A DNA stretch of 64,000 nucleotides from Branchiostoma floridae. Its lineage: Eukaryota > Chordata > Leptocardii > Amphioxiformes > Branchiostomatidae. Positions 40,473 through 52,400 of the stretch are shown piece by piece. Within the stretch, counting starts at the first letter, position 1. The number at the start of each line of letters is the position of its first letter. The notes beneath the pieces are model-generated. The model had not been told where the DNA came from. It saw only the letters and a list, made by a program, of their open reading frames with translations, and did not search any database. The DNA lies in the NCBI RefSeq assembly GCF_000003815.2, contig NC_049994.1, forward strand, positions 13,129,039-13,193,038. Direction: 5' to 3'. Made by a program: the position numbers and the translations under genes.

Positions 40473-43400
40473 ATGTCGTCTGCAAAATCGGAGTGGAAGA
40501 AGACTTGGCAGGGAGCTCTGAGCGCGCGATCCTGGCAGAGGTTCGAGTTGGAGGGTCAGAATTTTCTCCTGAAGACACATGTGGACCACAGGGAGGGGTA
40601 CGAGTTTCTCCTGACCGATCTCACCTCTATGTGGTACGAGAAAATGGACATAGATCAGGTCAAGAAGCGATGCAAGGTAACTTTTCTGTGATGATGAAAC
40701 GTTTGGGGTTTATTTTTCTTGCATAAATTGATAAAAGCCAGTGCAATGCGTTTACACGGAAGTAAACTCTTCTCCGTTTACACAATTTTTATGTCCTCTA
40801 ATAGCAATATCAAGTTAAAATGTATTGAATACTAGTATTTTGTCTACCCAGATTGGTAGTACTCTGGAGAAGAAAAACAAACGCTAGGGGGCGCAGTTGC
40901 ATCGTGGACGCTGAGACTTGCACACCTGGGGGTTATAGGTCAATGCAACATTTCTCTTAGTTCCGTTCAAAATCTCGATTTTTTGCATTGTATGAACCCC
41001 ATGATATAGACATATCATCACTAAAACTAAAAGTTGAAATGAATAGATATTTGTTAAGGCTTGCATAAAGGTTTGAATATTCTAAGGTAATTTACCAATT
41101 CACTTGACATAAGAAAATCATAAAGTGCCACAGACAAAATTGTCAATTGTTACTTCTCACCCTATACTGACAAACTGTATGTTTTATGCAGTGTTGAACT
41201 GCGCGAGGAATATAAGCATATTCCTATTAAGGGATAATTTTTGACTGCCCCCCAATGTTGAGGTGGGGCCAATATGTATATAAATAAACCACAAATCAAT
41301 GATAATTCAATAAAAACAAATATCGATAATAATAAATTGCAAGTTGTTGGCGTACGGTAAGTGTATCAGTGTAACCTCAAAACTTTTAAATAACATATCA
41401 TAGATAAAAGTAATATTGCAACAGTGCAAACTTAAGAGACATTTAACTTCATGTATTAAAGACCAGCATACCTTAGGTTAAACAATACAGCATTTCAACC
41501 TTAAAATGTGTGACTTTGGCATGTTACGAGACACTGTGTATGATAAGATGATCACAAAAAATTAAGATAAAATAGTCTGTATAATTAGTGCATATAATAG
41601 TATGATAACATTCTTGTTATCATCCATTAAGTACCAGATATTATGGTTGTATTGGGCCACAAACAGAGTTGTACAGTTTTGGGCAAACTCGTCCAGAATT
41701 TCATTTTGAAAATCTGCTCCGAATGTCTCATTTCGCGGTTCGTAGTGCCCAAATTTGGGCATAATTTTTGACTGCCCCTCATCGCATTTGCAGGGGCAAA
41801 ATCTTTAAAAGGAAAGAATTGTGAAGTCTTTGGAAATTTTGGGATTCTCATGCTGATACTACATGTCTTTAGATGTGTAGTTGTGGACCAGAGCAATATT
41901 GTGGGATGGATTCTAGTATAAGCTAATGGCTGAGCATGGCATGTTTTGTAAACTTAATGTATTTTCCTCTTTCATTAAACAAAATTAGTGTTATGTCACT
42001 AGTTACTGAGCTACTGACAGATGAAAGTGTTTTTCAAATATCATGCCCTTAATGGTATTCAAGACCAGCATGTGATGCCTCAGGTCAAATGCCAATACAA
42101 CATTTGTACTTATTTCCTACAAAATTATTGATTTGGACAGTGTATAAGACACGACATTCTATGTAATCAACCTCCAAAAATTAGATGAAAAATATATACA
42201 ATTCTTGCATAAATTCTTGCTTTTGTTATCATTCTCTGATTTTCATATAAGTAGATTGCACAGCGCCACAAACAGAAGTGTCCACTTTTGCAAACACTTC
42301 TATGCAGTGAACGAGATCCCCCACGTAACTTACAACATAAAAGAACCATTTTTGGCTGCCCACATCGATCTGATCAACTACAGAATCACTATGTCTGGAC
42401 GTGGCAAAGGAGGCAAGGGACTCGGATGAACGTGCGCATGCGTGGCGTCGTGTAGACGCTTCTGCCGCGTGCTGCAGGTCTAGAGCTCTTTTTCAGCCAT
42501 TTTTGTATGGTTGGAGTGATAGTCTAGGCCGGAGGTTTAGTCAGTCGGTTAGCTGGTTTTTCCAGGATCATTTCGATGGTTTTCGATCTTCTGTAAGTTG
42601 ATTTTTGGAGGAGTTACGGTGTTTTTCGTGCCACCGACACCCTCCACGTCGAGCGTACGGGTCCCCCCTACGTCCTCGTGCCGCTAGGTGGTAGGTGGAC
42701 ACGTGCAATCTTTGCCGGTAGATATTTCCCTTGCCCGTGAAGGGATACTCTTCCTACTTTGTAGGAAAGGAAAGCAGGTTTGTGCCAACATTCCTACATA
42801 GTCTTGTTTCGCTTCGAATCGAATTTGTGGTGTTTTGAGCTGTTTCTGTACCCTCGCCCCCCGGCCATAGTGGGTGAAGGGGTTGGTACAGTCCAAGCAC
42901 ACCGCCTGGTGCCACTGTTTTTCTGGGTCAATCGCTATTTTTAGAATAGGTGGCATTCCGGGGCTCTAAAAGGGGTTTCTGGAGACCCTAGAAGGAACCT
43001 TCCATATACTCCACAGAGAAATAGACTGATTTTGGACTAGGCAAAATGAGGAGAGACAACTCAATTTGCGTTACGTATACCGCTCAGAAAGACAAGTTAT
43101 CTGAGCAGGAGACCTGGGCACTCCTGGACTCTGTGGGGATACCTACATCCAGTCTCCAGACAGTGCAAGCGCTGAACGCTACGTCTTTTGATTTGACCTT
43201 CCGTACGCTTCACGATAGAAAGTTGTATGGGGGTAAACTCTCGGCACTACAGTACTTAGATGTCCGTGTGTACGGAAGTGCTGAGACAGTCGTCACAGCA
43301 ACCCGTATACCGGACGAGTTTGATGACAATCACGTACGGTACTGGCTATCCCGTTATGGACAGGTCCTGGCTTCCCGTATGACCACCTACAGGGACAGAC

Positions 43401-46400
43401 CTACTGTCCGTAATGGGAACAGGCAGTACAAGGTTATACTCAAACCAGGGGCAAACATCCCGTCCTCTTGGAGGTTAGCAGACGGTCGGTTAGCCTTTTT
43501 CCGGTACGTCGGACAACAAAGAACATGTCTGAAATGTTACCAGGAAGGGCACGAGGCAGCACAATGTACTGTCATCTTCTGTAACAAATGCCAACTGATT
43601 GGGCATACCTCTGCGGAATGCAGCAATCAAGTAGTCTGTAATCAGTGCGGCAAGGAGGGACACACCGCACGTCGGTGCCCTACTTCATATGCCAACAAAC
43701 TGCTGCCTGACAATAAGTGGACCAGCGGTCCGGCTGCTGAGGCAACCGTGGCCAGTGCTAAGACCCCTGGTCAGAGTGAGCAGTCTCAAGTAAACGAGAC
43801 TGTCTCCAGTGGTAAGAGTCAGAGTGAGCAAACAAACGAGACTGACTCCAGCGACTCCGGGTCGGAGGAGAGCGGGGAAGATGATTCCGCCGAGGAATTT
43901 GCTTCCTCTGACGAACTGACGGAGAAAGAAAGGGAGCTAGAAAGGGAGCTGCTTCTTGAAGCAACCCAACCATCTCCGAGCTCTGCGGAGCGCATTGAAC
44001 CAAACGGGGAGCAAGAAACAACCCATCCTCGCAACAAGAAACGCAAGAAGCGCAAGGGCAAGGCCAAAAATGGCCGCAAACAGAACAACGAGGTCGAAGA
44101 GCCTCAAACACCAGTCAAAAATGTGGTGGCCAAGAAGAAGGCCCCACATACTGGAGACCCGTCATCTGACGCGATGGAAGTCGACCAGCAGACCTCTAAA
44201 AGGCCTGCGCCTTCCGACGAAGAAGTCAGCCCAAAAAGAAAGAGTGAGCCGTCGACAGTAACGAAGGGCCCTCATAGTCCCGGTTACGACCTTCCCTTAT
44301 CAGGAGAGCTAGCCATCGACGAGTTCACGTCATCTGGAGAATCTCTATAATGATGCCCCAAAATATGCATAGGCTCAATGCCTTCCTTATGTTAACGATG
44401 GTGGTTATAGCAACCTTAAACGTTTGTGGGATGCGCAATCCCAACAAACGCAAACAGGTATACGACTTTTGCAGACAACACAAATTTGATATTGTTTGCC
44501 TGCAAGAGAGTCACATTACACATGTGGATGAAACTACTAAGTGGGAAAAGGAATGGGGAGGGCAGGCCCTATGGAGCCTTGGTACGCCCAACTCTAGAGG
44601 TGTAGGCATCCTGCTTTCCCCATCCCTTGACTTGAAAATAACTAAGAAATTCTGCGATGATGAGGGTCGCGTAGTTTCCGCAGTCCTGGCTGACGGCACG
44701 CGCTCTCTTCGAGTGTGCAACGTATACGCACCGAATGATGCAGCTGAACGATCCACATTTTTCCGTGGTCTAGGCAATTTCTTATCCAACTCTGAGTCCA
44801 CGGTCCTTTGTGGGGATTTCAACTGCATTGAGTCTCCCAGCCTAGATAAAAGAGGGGGGAATCCAAGTCGTAGTTCTGGAGGTTCGAAAATTCTAAAGAA
44901 CCTCTGTGCTAGTCACAACCTACACGACTCGTGGAGGCAGCTGAATCCGGATGGGCGCGTATATACGTGGCGTCAACCTGATAACGCTGTAGCATGCCGA
45001 CTGGATAGACTTTACTCATCCAACAATCTGCCCGTCTCTGGCCATTTTTTCCGGCCTGCATACTTCACAGACCACGATTGTGTGGGAATCGATGTGCTTC
45101 CAACAGCTAAAAAGAAGTCTTCCATGTGGAAGTGCAATGTTTCCATCCTAAAGAACAAAGAAGTCCAGTCGGACTTCACTGCGTCCTACAAGGACTGGCA
45201 GACTTTGAAGTTGGGTTACCCTTCCCTGAGATCTTGGTGGGATGACGTCAAAGACCGAACCCGCTCCTTGTTTATTAAGCACTCATGTAAGATAGCCAAA
45301 GACAAAAGAGAAGCTCGTTACCAACTGAACAACACTTTAGGGGATCTGACCAACCAGCTTAATGCTGGTGCGGTCTCACCTGATGTCCTGAGACAATATA
45401 AGGCCACGAAAGACGCACTGTCAGAGTTGGCAACCTCTGAAGCTCAGGGCGCCATCGTCAGATCCCGAATCAAACAATTTGAGGAGGGGGAAAAGTGCAC
45501 GTCCTTCTTTCTAAAGCAGGCCGCTTCCAACGGCAAGAAGAAAAGGATCTGTGCCATACGAGACTCAATGGGACAAGTTGTCCATGAGGATGACGAAATC
45601 GCAAATGTTTTCTACGAATTCTACGCAGAGCTGTTTGCTGAGGAACCAGTGGACCCGGTTGCCTCTGACCAGCTTTGTGACAACCTTGAAAACACATTGA
45701 CCCCAGAGGAGGCCCAAGCATTGGAGGCCCCTCTCTCAACCGACGAAATGTTAAACTCAGTCCGCAGCATGCAAAATAATAAATGCCCGGGCAGTGATGG
45801 TCTACCCAAAGAGTTCTACACGACCTTCTGGCATCTGATTGCCGACGACCTCCTGAAGGTGTTTCAAGAAGCTCTTGATGCTGGAGAACTTTCCTCCAGC
45901 CAGAAGTTTGGGGTTTTGACACTGTTGCCAAAGAAGGGAGACGAATTGGACCCCAAGAACAGGAGACCAATCTCCCTCCTAAACACCGACTACAAAATTT
46001 TGACTAAAGTTCTTAATAACCGCCTTCAGTCTGTAATAGCGTCGGTGTTGCACCCGGACCAAACCTGTGGTGTACCAGGAAGGTCGATCCAGTGCAACCT
46101 CCGACTCACACGAGACATAGTTGTTTACGCAAATAACAATAACATCGAATGTGCTATTGTCTCCCTTGATCAAGCAAAAGCCTTTGACCGTGTCAACATC
46201 TCCTTTCTACAACAGACTCTCGCACGAATGGGATTTGGACCTTCCTTTCGGAAGTGGGTTTCAATACTTTACAACGACATCTCCAGTTCCGTTTTGGTGA
46301 ATGGCTCCCTGTCGTCTCCCTTCGCCCTAACAAGGGGAGTGCGGCAGGGATGCCCACTTTCGCCACTGTTGTATGCAATCTCTCTTGAGCCGTTTGCGGC

Positions 46401-49400
46401 GACAGTCCGCAAAGACTCTGAGGTGCATGGAGTAAAACTCCCAGGCGGCTACGAAGCCAAAATGTCTCTGTATGCAGATGATAACTCTGCCTTCCTGACA
46501 TCAGACGACTCTATCGTCAGGCTGTTTGACCTTGTCGGGCTGTACAACAGAGGCTCAGGCTCAATGTTGAACCTAGACAAGTGTGAGGGGTTATGGCTGG
46601 GGAAATGGAGAAACAGACCAGACACCCCTGTACAAATAAAATGGACATCTGGGTCCATCCGTCTGCTTGGTGGGGTCTTTGGCAACATTGACATGCCCCT
46701 AACCAACTGGAAGGATGGTAAACGCAAATTTGTTGAAACCTTACAAGGATGGGGAGCCAGATCCCTCTCCTTTACAGGCAAAGTGACAGTGGCAAACTCT
46801 CTAGCCACAGCCAAACTGTGGTACCTGGCGTCGGTGTTCACCCCTCCTGATTCGGTCATGAAGGAAATCAATACCGCACTGTTCGCCTTTTTCTGGGACA
46901 AAAAGCGTGAGATGATCAGCCGAAATACCATCTACCTTCCTCCTGAGAAGGGCGGCTGGGGCCTAATCGACATAGCAAAGAAGGCAAAATGTCTGTACAG
47001 TCGGCCTTTCTCGGACATCATGTCCCAGGAAGACTTACCTTGGGTGCAGCTCGCCAGGTACTGGCTCGGTATTTTCATTAGACGTTTCGACCCGTCAACA
47101 TGGTCCAATAACATGCCCCACTCCCCGAATGCCCCTCCCCACTACAAAGCTCTACAGTCCCTGGTATCTGAACTCGTAGAGGCATCCCCCTCTAAAAAGT
47201 GGGACCCCGGTTGCACTACGCGGTCTCTATACGACAGCCTTCTAAAGAAGGATGCTCACGTTCCAAGCGTCTGTCTTAACAAGCGTTCTGTTCCCTGGCC
47301 ATTAACCTTCCAATCTGTTCAACACCCACTCCTGGAGAACAGACTGAAGGACACTGCATGGCTGGTTGCACACCACGCCCTCAAAACGAATGCTCTGCTC
47401 TGCTCGAACTGGGGTTACATTCGCTCGGGAACTTGTCCAAGGCAGAATTGTAAAGGCCACGAAACTGTAGAGCACGCCATGTGGTACTGCAGCGAAGTGC
47501 TGCTAACATGGACTTGGGTGGAGGGTTTTCTCAGGAGGTGGGTCATGTCAGACTTCCGAATAAATAAACAGATGGTTATCTATGGCATCCTGCCACCCTC
47601 ATGGAAAAAATGCAAGATAGATGCTATCACCTACACCCTGGCCGTCGCGAGGAAACGCATATGGTCCTCACGTTGTGAAGCACTCTTTGACAAGACCTTT
47701 TCGACTCATGTCGAGATGGTCCCATACATCAAGGAGTGCCTCCGCTCAAGAATAAAGCTTGACTTTGTACGTCTGAACGAAACAACGTTTATGTCTCTGT
47801 GGTGCTCAGTGCAGTGGGCGAGGGTCGACGGGGGAAAACTGCGACTACGCTTTTAATCCCCTGCTTCCCCCCTGTAGTCGTATCAGTCTGGTATGAACTG
47901 TCTGTCTTGTACGTTTCGTATGTCTTTTTTATTTGGATGTGTCAAGTTGGCAGGAGTGGGTTGGTGGGAGCTCGGCGGACAAGTAACCTGTTGTGGGTAG
48001 CTTGACACATCCCTTTTTCTTTCCTTCTTCTCTTGTATGTTCTTTGAAATGATGTAAAAAAAAAAAAAAAAAAAATGAAAACAGTGAAAAAACGTCTTGT
48101 CTCTCTTGTCTAGTTTTCTTTCTTTTTTGATTTTGTTATACCCCCATTAAAAACGGGCCCAGCTTGTTCAGTAGCTGGGTTTGGCCAAGGTATAGCTCAG
48201 AACACATCTCCTCATAGGAAGCAGCTCTGTCAGCTTTTTGCCATGGCAGAGTTGTGCCCGAAATGTGGAAAACACCCAATATACCAAAATGAAAATTCCA
48301 GCAAAAACCAACACTGTACCCTATACACCTAGAGTTAGACAGCTCAAGAAAACCTGGATATAATTCTGGAAATGGTCAAATGTGTTTGTGCCTTTCCTCA
48401 GTCAGATGCTTCAGACACTTTTCCTATGTCTTTCATCGGTGACACTGGAAGGATCTTGTTGATCATATCCAAGTAGAGTAACTGCTTTTTGGCGCAAAAC
48501 TGTCCTCTCTTAATGAAGCTCTGTTATCACCTCAGCAGCACTGTACCTAAGTGATTTGACGGTGCACTCAACAAATTTCATTGATAATAAACAAACCTTT
48601 TTACCCTTTGTGTGCTTTATTGCCCTATTAGTCATAATTGTATGTTTTGCATGATATTCCCATTTTAAAGTTAAGGTTAAGACAAAAATTCAATTTTGAA
48701 CATAGAGATGCTGCCAAGGTACCAGACTCTAATCTTCACACCTTTTGGAGATATGTCCTGCTGTATGTCCTGCTGTGCATCAATGTACCGAAAACATGCT
48801 ACAAGTGTAACAAACTACATCAATTACAGTATAAACTATAACTATAGGATATGGGATGCCAGGCTGTAAAAAGTTGCAGACAGTCTCACATGTAAATTAC
48901 TTCTTGGACAGACAAGTTGTTTTGCTTAAGTGTGGTCCTAAGTGATAACTTGTTCTCCAACTGTGCAATGTACTGAAAGTGTTACAAACTACATCAATTA
49001 CGGTATAACCATGACTGTAGGATATATGGGATGCCTTGGCCAGGCCATTCCAACTGTCCAGGCTGTAAAAAGTTACAGTCAACCTCAAACGTTCGGACAG
49101 ACAAGTCGTTTGGCTTAAGTGTGGTCCTTAGCTACAACGTGTTCTCTTACTGACTGTGCAATGTACCGAAAACATTCTACAAGTGTTACAAACTACATCA
49201 ATTACGGTATAACCATGACTGTAGGATATGGGATACCTTGGCCAGGCCATTCCAACTGTAAAAAGTTACAGTCTCAAACGTTTCAGACTCGGACAGACAA
49301 GTCGTTTGGCCTAAGTACCAGGTCCTTATTGACGACTTAGCCCATCTGGGTGCTTCTCTATCCGTACCATTATGCTGTACTAAGAGGGCCCCCAAGGGGG

Positions 49401-52400
49401 GGTACCGACAACGCTCTACGCTAAATTCAGGAGGGCCGGCTACGTAATACGCTAAATTATGGACACTTTATTACGCTCTACGCTAAATTACGAAATTTCA
49501 TATGTGTTATGCAAATTTTTATTGTCTTTTGGCTGAACTCCGCCGACGGCAGAACATGTGAAGATGAGATCTAAACAAAACTAATAATTCCATTAATAAG
49601 ATTAAAGCTTAACTTCTAAAGACGTCTTGATGGCCAAAGGCGGCGACAGCAAATTTCTCATGTGACGTAATTTTTAGCACCGAAAGCGGAGGCGCGACAA
49701 TCCTAGGCCGTCCGGGGGCATGCTCCCCCGGGAATATTGTGAAATCCTGACCCTCTGAAACGCCATTTTATGTATTTTGAAGGGCAAATTTTGCTCACAG
49801 ACTAAGCTAAGTTAAATAGCATCCAATTAGAAATTCACATGGTTTTAGCTTTAAGCTGGGCAACGCCCCCAAACATCATTTTCAGATTTCGAGTGCCGAA
49901 ATCACGAACAGTCGAACTGTCGCAAGGTAGGTACGGGAAAATTTGGAAATTTTTACCCTCTGAAACACCATTTCCTGCATTTTGAGGGGCAAATTTTGCT
50001 GGCAGGCATATGCTCAATGTAATGACATTTCTGTCAGAGAAACGTCTTTGAGGGCGACGAGCGCCGGAGAGTCGTGAGCGCCGGAGGTCCAAGCCGTCGC
50101 AAGCCTTGGCAAGGGCCGTCCGGCGCCCGGAGAAAAATTGAAATCTCAACCCTCTGAAATGCCATTTCCTGCATTTAAGGGGCAAATTTTGCTTGTTAAC
50201 TAAGCTAAGGTCGGTACTATGAAGCGTTTCGGTTGGGGGACGACGCTCCGCAAACATATTTTCACCATGTCCAGTGCCGAAGTGTTGAGCCATAGCAAGG
50301 AATGTCCGGCGAATTTTTGAAATCTGGACCCTTAGAAATGCAATTTTCGCGGGTAAAATTTGCCGGTAGACTAGTTAAGTTTAATGAAACTTTGATTACG
50401 CTTGACGAAAAATTAATATGAATTACGTTTTACGGTAAAATCTGGTTAGCTTCTACGTAATACGTTAAATTAAAGGGGCCAATATCGCTCGACGCAAAAT
50501 GCACCGATTACGCTCTACGTTGAATTCGAACGGTCCCGCTACGGAGTACGTAGAATTAAAACCGCCGATTACGCTCTACGGAAAAGGGCTTTGGGGCCCC
50601 CTACTAAGTACAGTCTGTCTGACAAGATAGCATCTTTCCTTCTGAAGAAAGATTGCTATGGTACTCTGCGTCTTATCTCGTTACCAAGCTTGGCAAGGAA
50701 TGTAAATCCGGACCTCGTAAGGCCAAGATGTAGTTCCAAGACGTTAGTTGGGTACAAATTCTAGATCAGAGCTGTACTGTTGAAAATTTATCATGACAGC
50801 AGGATTATGTTGTCACTCCTGGAAACAGCGCCCCCTTTTGATCCAGATGAGTATGACAGCAAGGCAGCAGTAGCTTTATGTATAGCAGACCTGTTCTNNN
50901 NNNNNNNNNNNNNNNNNNNNNNNNNNNNNNNNNNNNNNNNNNNNNNNNNNNNNNNNNNNNNNNNNNNNNNNNNNNNNNNNNNNNNNNNNNNNNNNNNGCC
51001 CCACATCGCATTTGTTGGGGCAAATCTTGAAATACATGAAAATTCTATGTAAATTTGGGGCTTTTCTTGCATACTGTACTAGTCAGAGATAATAGAATGG
51101 TAGACTGGAGTGAAATAAATAATTTCACTACGTAGTAACTGATCTACTGACTCAAACCTTTTATGTATGTTATTTTGCATGTTCTTCTATCACTGAAGAT
51201 GTCTGATTTTCATATTTTATCAATTTATGAAATACAAAGCACTATGCATATGGAAAAAAACACAAGAAATCAAGATGAAAACTTATGTGCGATTGATTTT
51301 TTCATACAACCTTTTAACCCTTTTTGTGATTCTGCACTGAGTATATAATAAGAACATTGGTCATTGTATATGGCCAGCCTAACACTACAGCAGAACTGTA
51401 CCCTTTTGAGGCATTAAGATAGTATCCTATCTCTTCTGTATAACACTTAGTTTTAAAAAATACCACACAACGTTTGTCAAATGTTGTATGCCAAATAATG
51501 AAATAACAAACCTATTTTTAAAAAATCCTTGCCTCTAAATCTTTTCAGACCCTGAACCCACGTTTTGAAGCCCCCCTCCCCACCATCCTGAGACTTCTGC
51601 AAGACAACACCGAGACCAAGAAGGATTCCACGGACTATACCATTCAGCACAAGGGGGAGGGGATGGTCTTGGTACTGGAGACCAAAGTTGGTGGGATCCG
51701 CTTCACGTGGGAGTTCCACTGTCAGCAAGCGCAGAAGGAGATGGTAAGAACAACTTTAATTGAGTGTAATCTTGAGGATACATTCACTGATTGCAGTTTT
51801 GATGGAAACTTTGTACTACATTAAATTTTATTCTTCATAATGTGATGACTTTGTGGTGAAAATTAGTCATTACAAAACCATGGCCTGAACATAATATGGC
51901 CGCGAATATTCTATCATGATGATGGTTAATCTGTTAAATATTGAAGAAACTATGAGTACATGGAGTAAGTGAGGCAATAATGGTCCTCATGACCTGTATG
52001 GTACCCTTTAAACAGTTGCATGTCATTACCTTTGCCAAGTAGGTTGTACGTTTTAGTTGCCATTTATCTGTATATCTGTGAATGGACAGCATAACTTGTG
52101 GATGGATCCTTATGATATTTGATAGGTGGGTAGGGGTTGGAAATTAAAGGTCAAGGTTGATACTGCTAATCATCATGATATTTGGTATGTTTCCTCACAC
52201 ACCTGTTACAGCTGCGAGACCAGCTACTGGAACCCCTGATGATGATGGTGGCCTTGATTAAACCTTGAAAAGATGAGATTTTTGGACCCTTAGCAGAGTG
52301 TTGCAGTACTGCAGCAGAACTTCCTGTTTTGCTATGTTGACTTCTGTTTCCTTACGCACCTGTTACAGCTGCGAGACCAGCTGCTGGAACCCCTGATGAC

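Follow-up and report, generated by a model that had tools for sequence, protein, structure and literature searches.

A histone H4 leader joined to a full-length LINE of the L1 superfamily in Branchiostoma floridae

Introduction

How the beginning of a histone message came to stand in front of a retrotransposon is the question raised by a locus of Branchiostoma floridae, at which a full-length LINE is preceded, in the same orientation, by the start of a histone H4 gene. The original prediction for this locus considered that an H4 leader had been carried away from an H4 gene by the LINE (5' transduction), with or without a preference of the family for such genes, or that reverse transcriptase had jumped from the LINE RNA onto an H4 mRNA. 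Precedents exist for chimeras of LINE and mRNA, for 5' transductions and for LINEs with specific targets, the Tx1-type elements being target-specific LINEs of multicopy genes. The DNA analyzed here is a window of 64,000 nucleotides (G000:C16:13129039-13193038), and the searched assembly comprises 513 Mb in 431 contigs.

Structure of the H4-LINE fusion

The LINE occupies 42434-48157 of the window and both of its ORFs are open (Table 1). In front of it, all 59 bases of 42368-42426 agree with an H4 gene, G000:C13:11422677-11422735 (L016; genome search, best 40 of 41 candidates); this piece reaches from the predicted start of H4 transcription through codon 12, with the ATG at 42391. The H4 leader and codons 1-12 that had been recognized before the LINE are thereby confirmed, with a start at 42368 instead of 42366. 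The two parts do not abut directly, as had been thought: TGAACGT (42427-42433) intervenes, sister copies match the window only from 42432-42437 on, and the donor gene continues after codon 12 with AAGGGAGGC. For the seven complete LINE 5' ends together, the chance expectation of a 36-base match no more than 60 bases away is about 1e-19, and a chance origin is negligible. No Ns occur at the H4-LINE junction, the sole gap within the window being the 100-base assembly gap at 50898-50997.

Table 1. Features of the LINE insertion, in window positions
Feature	Position	Strand	Remark
Putative target duplication CCCA, 5' copy	42359..42362	.	Letters repeated at 48158-48161; weak, 4 bp
Extra bases CATCG (5) between target and H4 piece	42363..42367	+	Donor H4 has ..CCGGC before ATCTGATC
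H4 mRNA 5' leader, beginning where transcription is predicted to start	42368..42390	+	Identical to L016 H4 gene
H4 codons 1-12 (MSGRGKGGKGLG)	42391..42426	+	Identical to L016 H4 codons 1-12
Filler TGAACGT (7 bases), H4-LINE junction	42427..42433	+	In neither donor H4 gene nor sister LINE copies
LINE 5' UTR, complete 5' end GCGCATGCGTGGCG	42434..43045	+	In 6 sister copies the match begins at window 42432-42437, with 98-99% identity
ORF1, 434 aa, CCHC zinc knuckle	43046..44350	+	Pfam PF00098, E 1.5e-07
ORF2, 1168 aa, APE-type endonuclease and reverse transcriptase, open throughout	44350..47856	+	Pfam PF03372, PF00078
LINE 3' UTR, internal A-run 48056-48076, 3' end ..CATTAAAAACGGG	47857..48157	+	Common to copies compared; flanks diverge from 48158
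Putative target duplication CCCA, 3' copy	48158..48161	.	Same letters as 42359..42362

At the other end of the element, the A-run that had been taken for the poly(A) is not the tail, because the copies compared continue to CATTAAAAACGGG, at window 48157. The further claim that no H4 sequence follows it holds, insofar as the fragment is the sole H4-type match on the contig among the best 40 of 41 candidates. An automatic search for a duplication of six or more bases around the window copy found none, CCCA being the maximum. The search for an empty site yielded no more than a paralogue of the 3' flank, on C3, which was rejected as weak; at C3:29529619 the paralogous flank reads TGCCCAACTTG and has, beyond CCCA, just two bases from the 5' side. 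Farther downstream, window 48781-49338 consists of diverged direct repeats of about 180 bp that are 73-75% identical.

The left edge of the H4 piece can be compared with the promoters of H4 genes. A CA dinucleotide (scored as the CA nearest to 45 within 38-52 bases) is spaced 44-46 bases from the upstream promoter word GTCCG in 10/11 readable H4 promoters, a count that covers those of the 24 listed H4 genes that passed a sequence filter (half) and in which four of the ten fitting promoters are near-identical paralogues; L021 is the one that does not fit, and L073, a twelfth, is N-masked. This word and its spacing are predicted to mark the H4 transcription start. The identity between window and donor begins at the A of the CA, 45 bases after GTCCG (42368), and the preceding letter differs. 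Since the piece begins at the predicted initiator A, its source would be an RNA, or a DNA copy of an RNA, starting at or next to the cap, in agreement with the original view that the fragment is the start of the mRNA and not a random piece of the gene. An RNA-derived 5' part that begins at the RNA 5' end, which characterizes template-switch chimeras, is found here at the predicted H4 start, and this edge does not separate 5' transduction from template switching.

The LINE family and its target sites

The element has the two ORFs of the L1 superfamily, with APE endonuclease, reverse transcriptase and an ORF1 nucleic-acid-binding domain, and the best solved relative of ORF2 is human LINE-1 ORF2p (E 6e-88). 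Its 5' UTR is present in at least seven further copies at 98-100% identity (best 40 of 41 candidates), six with a complete 5' end and one truncated, the complete sister ends starting at GCGCATGCG or a few bases further in. Over the whole element, nine copies compared differ pairwise by 0.33-1.10%, which makes the family a young one, and the window copy has eight private substitutions among these nine; by sequence, it is a very young member of the L1 superfamily. The number of family copies is a lower bound, as the genome searches returned the best 40 of 219, 40 of 336 and 40 of 41 candidates. A histone leader is found in 2/7 copies with a complete LINE 5' end, namely the window copy and that at C16:15894901, and the other five are H4-free. 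Related elements on C11 and C18 (69-74% alike) have no histone leader in the 250 bases read upstream.

The family is target-preferring: 13/34 readable 3' junctions lie at GGG^CCTTTGGAAGG (the caret marks the point of insertion), a single position to which insertion has recurred within the same dispersed repeat (..ATGAAACTCGGCAAGGAAAGAAGGG^CCTTTGGAAGGGGCTTTGGAAGGG..). Counted in the 34 are six copies of greater divergence or with an alignment that ends 1-3 bases early (L058, L059, L060, L063, L064 and L068); left out are N-bounded or 3'-less copies (C19:1243493, C3:28256313, C37, C4:31154645, C1:34060435 and C9:3106090) as well as C13:2383758, C9:5373840, C2:24684960, C17:8144570 and C6:26302192. 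Not counted among the 13 are C19b (CCTTTG, then different), L060 (CCGTTGGAAGG) and L051 (the same repeat, shifted). The 3' flank begins with CC in 19/34 cases and with CCCA in three (window, H2B and C215). The dispersed repeat ..AAGGAAAGAAGGGCCTTTGGAAGGGGCTTTGGAAGGG.., the main target, is seen in the flanks of L009, L014, L015, L053, L055, L061 and L066; an Rfam search of the window and seven copies, made to name it, gave 0 hits. The upstream flanks of L010 and L024 hold the same second repeat, with insertions at most a few dozen bases apart, which suggests a further preferred target.

Direct repeats around the LINE, whose lengths include the part common to the LINE ends, are not evident in L009, L010, L013 and L014, and measure 9-10 letters in L024 and L012, 15 in L015, and 21-23 in the H2B copy described below and in L061. 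At genomic 5' junctions, fillers of 8, 6 and 12 bp were identified by eye in L009, L010 and L015, respectively. Some copies have compound tails: L013 (C19:11963000-11972400, minus strand) has a tandem duplication of the terminal ~83 bp of the tail (TGAAAACAGTG..AACGGG), C37:405-891 holds part of a second tail unit followed by a gap, and C6:20330127-20330244 shows two copies that share one target site, one inserted immediately behind the tail of the other.

A second copy with an H4-type leader

In the copy at C16:15894901 (L011), 49 bases (ACTGCTC...ATGTCTGGACGTGACAAGGAAGG) stand directly before the LINE start GCGCATGCG, and outside this leader lies an 8-base match, GGTTATAG, that is found again where the LINE meets its 3' flank (the final GG of the element followed by TTATAG). 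The first 13 bases of its coding start, counted from the ATG, are common to 18/30 H4- and H2A-type starts read. The next ten, the last before the LINE, have three mismatches to H4 and may be filler, so that the fillers at the two H4-LINE junctions measure 7 bp in the window and perhaps 10 bp in L011. The leader is identical in 19/26 ungapped positions to that of the H4 gene at C13:10961716 (L072), a fit reached by 2 of 200000 shuffles, or ~2e-4 after the correction that is needed because L072 was picked as the best among 18 leaders. The leader of L011 starts opposite an A that lies three bases past the scored CA of L072, inside the same CATCATT. An H2A origin was considered and rejected: H2A and H4 account almost equally well for the coding start, but it is the H4 gene L072 that the leader resembles most. 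Judged by this alignment, the L011 leader is most likely the start of a message from a second H4 gene. An exact donor was not found within 3 mismatches of 31, and the genome search gave no other locus. The H4 ends in the window copy and in L011 fall at different codons.

A family copy within an H2B gene

One histone insertion is seen directly in the assembly. At C13:10986923-10991430, the 3' part of the LINE (from the window-equivalent position 43647) lies within an H2B gene, in gene-sense orientation, just behind the ATG at codons 2-3, with a duplication of 18-21 bp (..GAGAACATGCCGCCCAAAGGAGGAGGAAAA^LINE^CCCAAAGGAGGAGGAAAAGCTGCC.., with TATAAATA in the upstream region). Downstream of the LINE the H2B frame is open (..HAVSEGTKAVTKYTSSK stop) and is followed by the histone stem-loop, with an H3 gene adjoining. 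The insertion site, CCG^CCCAAAGGAGG, resembles the repeat site GGG^CCTTTGGAAGG, and when the assembly was scanned for AARGGAGG no more than 8 bases behind the LINE 3' end, the H2B site was the only one found. At least one histone ORF would be hit among 33 random insertions with P 0.001-0.01 (assuming 50-400 genes of 400 bp); because histone ORFs make up a tiny fraction of the genome, the H2B insertion counts in favor of possible histone targeting. This copy shows the arrangement needed for 5' transduction, except that the gene is H2B and the LINE is truncated. It would produce an H2B-leader-LINE RNA if the promoter works, and cannot itself yield a full-length RNA because it is 5'-truncated.

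Origin of the histone leaders

The account considered moderately probable combines 5' transduction with histone-gene targeting, with parent elements that land just downstream of histone start codons, are expressed from the histone promoter and re-insert together with the leader. The endonuclease would prefer sites like G^CC(C/T)..GGA(R)GG, of which the commonest is one position of the dispersed repeat, and purine-rich histone coding starts (H2B CCG^CCCAAAGGAGG, H4 GTGG^CAAAGGAGG) would serve as a true secondary target; the dispersed repeat is the main target of the family, and histone gene starts are a possible secondary one. The H4 gene that is today at C13:11422677 would have received a full-length parent, the 5' junction of which, with the filler TGAACGT, lay downstream of codon 12; a transcript of leader, codons 1-12 and LINE would then have been made from the H4 promoter. 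Reverse transcription of this RNA into the window locus, leader included, would have delivered the H4 mRNA 5' end, the 7 bp filler and the full-length LINE as one unit, and a separate event of the same kind, from another H4 gene, would have given rise to the copy at C16:15894901.

Several features are consistent with this account. The 2/7 complete copies whose leaders appear to fit two different H4 genes count for 5' transduction, as do the positions at which these leaders start, the initiator A in the window and within three bases of it in L011, and the site preference seen in the 3' flanks. Cleavage of H4 at the position homologous to that in H2B (GTGG^CAAAGGAGG) would give a target duplication of 22-24 bp that terminates precisely at codon 12, where the H4 piece of the window stops, and its length would be near the 18-21 bp of the H2B copy. 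The H4-LINE junction would be the 5' junction of the parent, and its filler is therefore sized like those at the genomic 5' junctions of the family; the two fillers in the window copy are explained because two successive insertions would leave them.

A source locus with a LINE downstream of the donor promoter, as 5' transduction demands, is not found in this assembly. None of the 24 H4-type genes listed (best 40 of 41 candidates, one assembly) carries the LINE; 22 of them are open to the stop and uninterrupted, L021 is frameshifted and L077 has an altered C-terminus. Further points against the account are that the junction scan gave H2B alone, that the copy there is 5'-truncated, that L011 has no exact donor and its H4 end falls at another codon than in the window, that the window duplication does not exceed CCCA, and that the assembly shows a single histone insertion. 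As the donor H4 gene is without a LINE here, the parent must be lost or be an allele of the other haplotype. The host species has very high heterozygosity, and the other haplotype may hold the parent insertion; since nine copies differ by as little as stated above, parent alleles may still segregate. The original suggestion of H4 transduction and targeting thus gains a second H4-type junction and the H2B insertion, and lacks an H4 gene with a LINE.

Template switching, the chief alternative, is possible, if somewhat improbable. In this case, reverse transcriptase ran off the 5' end of the LINE RNA onto an H4 mRNA (or a 3'-shortened fragment) and copied it to the cap, with RNA ligation before reverse transcription as a sub-variant. 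It predicts a sense piece reaching from the mRNA 5' end to an arbitrary internal point, as found, it would draw both H4 cases from the very abundant histone messages of S phase, and it fits an assembly without a parent. Chimeras of this origin are known for mammalian L1 and a fungal LINE, in excerpts of the respective reports (PMC13174262, PMC2104539), but those with full-length 5' RNA and a truncated LINE (PMC2104539, as excerpted) are the reverse of the present arrangement. The switch must moreover have occurred twice, both times onto an H4-type message and within 36 bases of the ATG, needs two filler stretches from one event in the window copy, and leaves the independent H2B insertion unexplained. 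H4-free 5' ends in other copies, together with H4 genes free of the LINE, had been expected of a one-off template switch: 5/7 complete copies are H4-free and the 24 listed H4 genes LINE-free, but the H4-type junction recurs. The jump onto H4 mRNA proposed originally is thus favored by the absence of a visible parent in H4, and is opposed by that recurrence and by the H2B copy.

It is very improbable that the chimera represents an established master lineage, which acquired its leader long ago and mostly lost it by 5' truncation. Two H4-type leaders in one young family would be expected of it, but the two differ, fit different H4 genes and have unlike junctions and fillers, by which this explanation is largely refuted; in addition, the six complete sister 5' ends lie within six bases of each other, five of them without a histone leader. 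An assembly error or chimeric scaffold joining H4 and LINE DNA is likewise highly unlikely, for although N gaps occur at some other LINE copies, the junction is gap-free, a random misjoin would not begin at the predicted start site, and the second case (L011) has a matching short repeat right outside its leader.

Relation to known systems and implications

For mammalian L1, Law and Burns (2026) report, in the excerpted text, 17 host-mRNA-LINE cases, 15 of them sense and 15 at transcript starts, with six junctions at splice donors of assorted genes that were read as cis- or trans-splicing (PMC13174262). As far as that excerpt goes, the chimeras share with the present ones the start of a sense host mRNA and a nearly full-length LINE in one insertion, and differ in that the junctions here fall, twice, within the initial codons of H4-type genes, which were read without introns, with a sister copy in H2B (PMC13174262). 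In Magnaporthe grisea, a full-length RNA copy precedes a 5'-truncated LINE; the excerpted description agrees with the present case in the cellular RNA copy before the LINE and its orientation, whereas here the RNA part is the first 59 bases only and the LINE is complete (PMC2104539). R2, which resides in 28S rDNA, is co-transcribed with the gene that it targets and so expressed, according to parts of two reports (PMC3954772, PMC12192640). Like R2 (PMC3954772, PMC12192640) and the Tx1-type elements (PMC3747384), in the sections available of these sources, the present family has a preferred site in a repeated sequence; unlike them, it has a dispersed repeat as main target and a protein-coding histone gene as gene target, and the host leader is carried to new sites. 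Among the titles and abstract openings of the open-licence literature, none concerned a LINE family that inserts into histone genes and also transports histone leaders.

A serious though tentative possibility is that the LINE endonuclease recognizes the purine-rich starts of replication-dependent histone genes as well as the repeat, that copies thereby insert time and again next to histone promoters, that histone-leader-LINE RNAs are formed in S phase, and that the family spreads with the leader. If true, this would be a protein-coding counterpart of the co-transcription of R2 with rDNA. The mammalian host-leader-LINE chimeras are scattered reports, while here a young family offers two H4-type leaders and one H2B copy. 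Such a family allows a test of histone promoters and S-phase expression as a regular source of LINE transcription, and of multicopy histone genes as a tolerated target, as rDNA is for R2.
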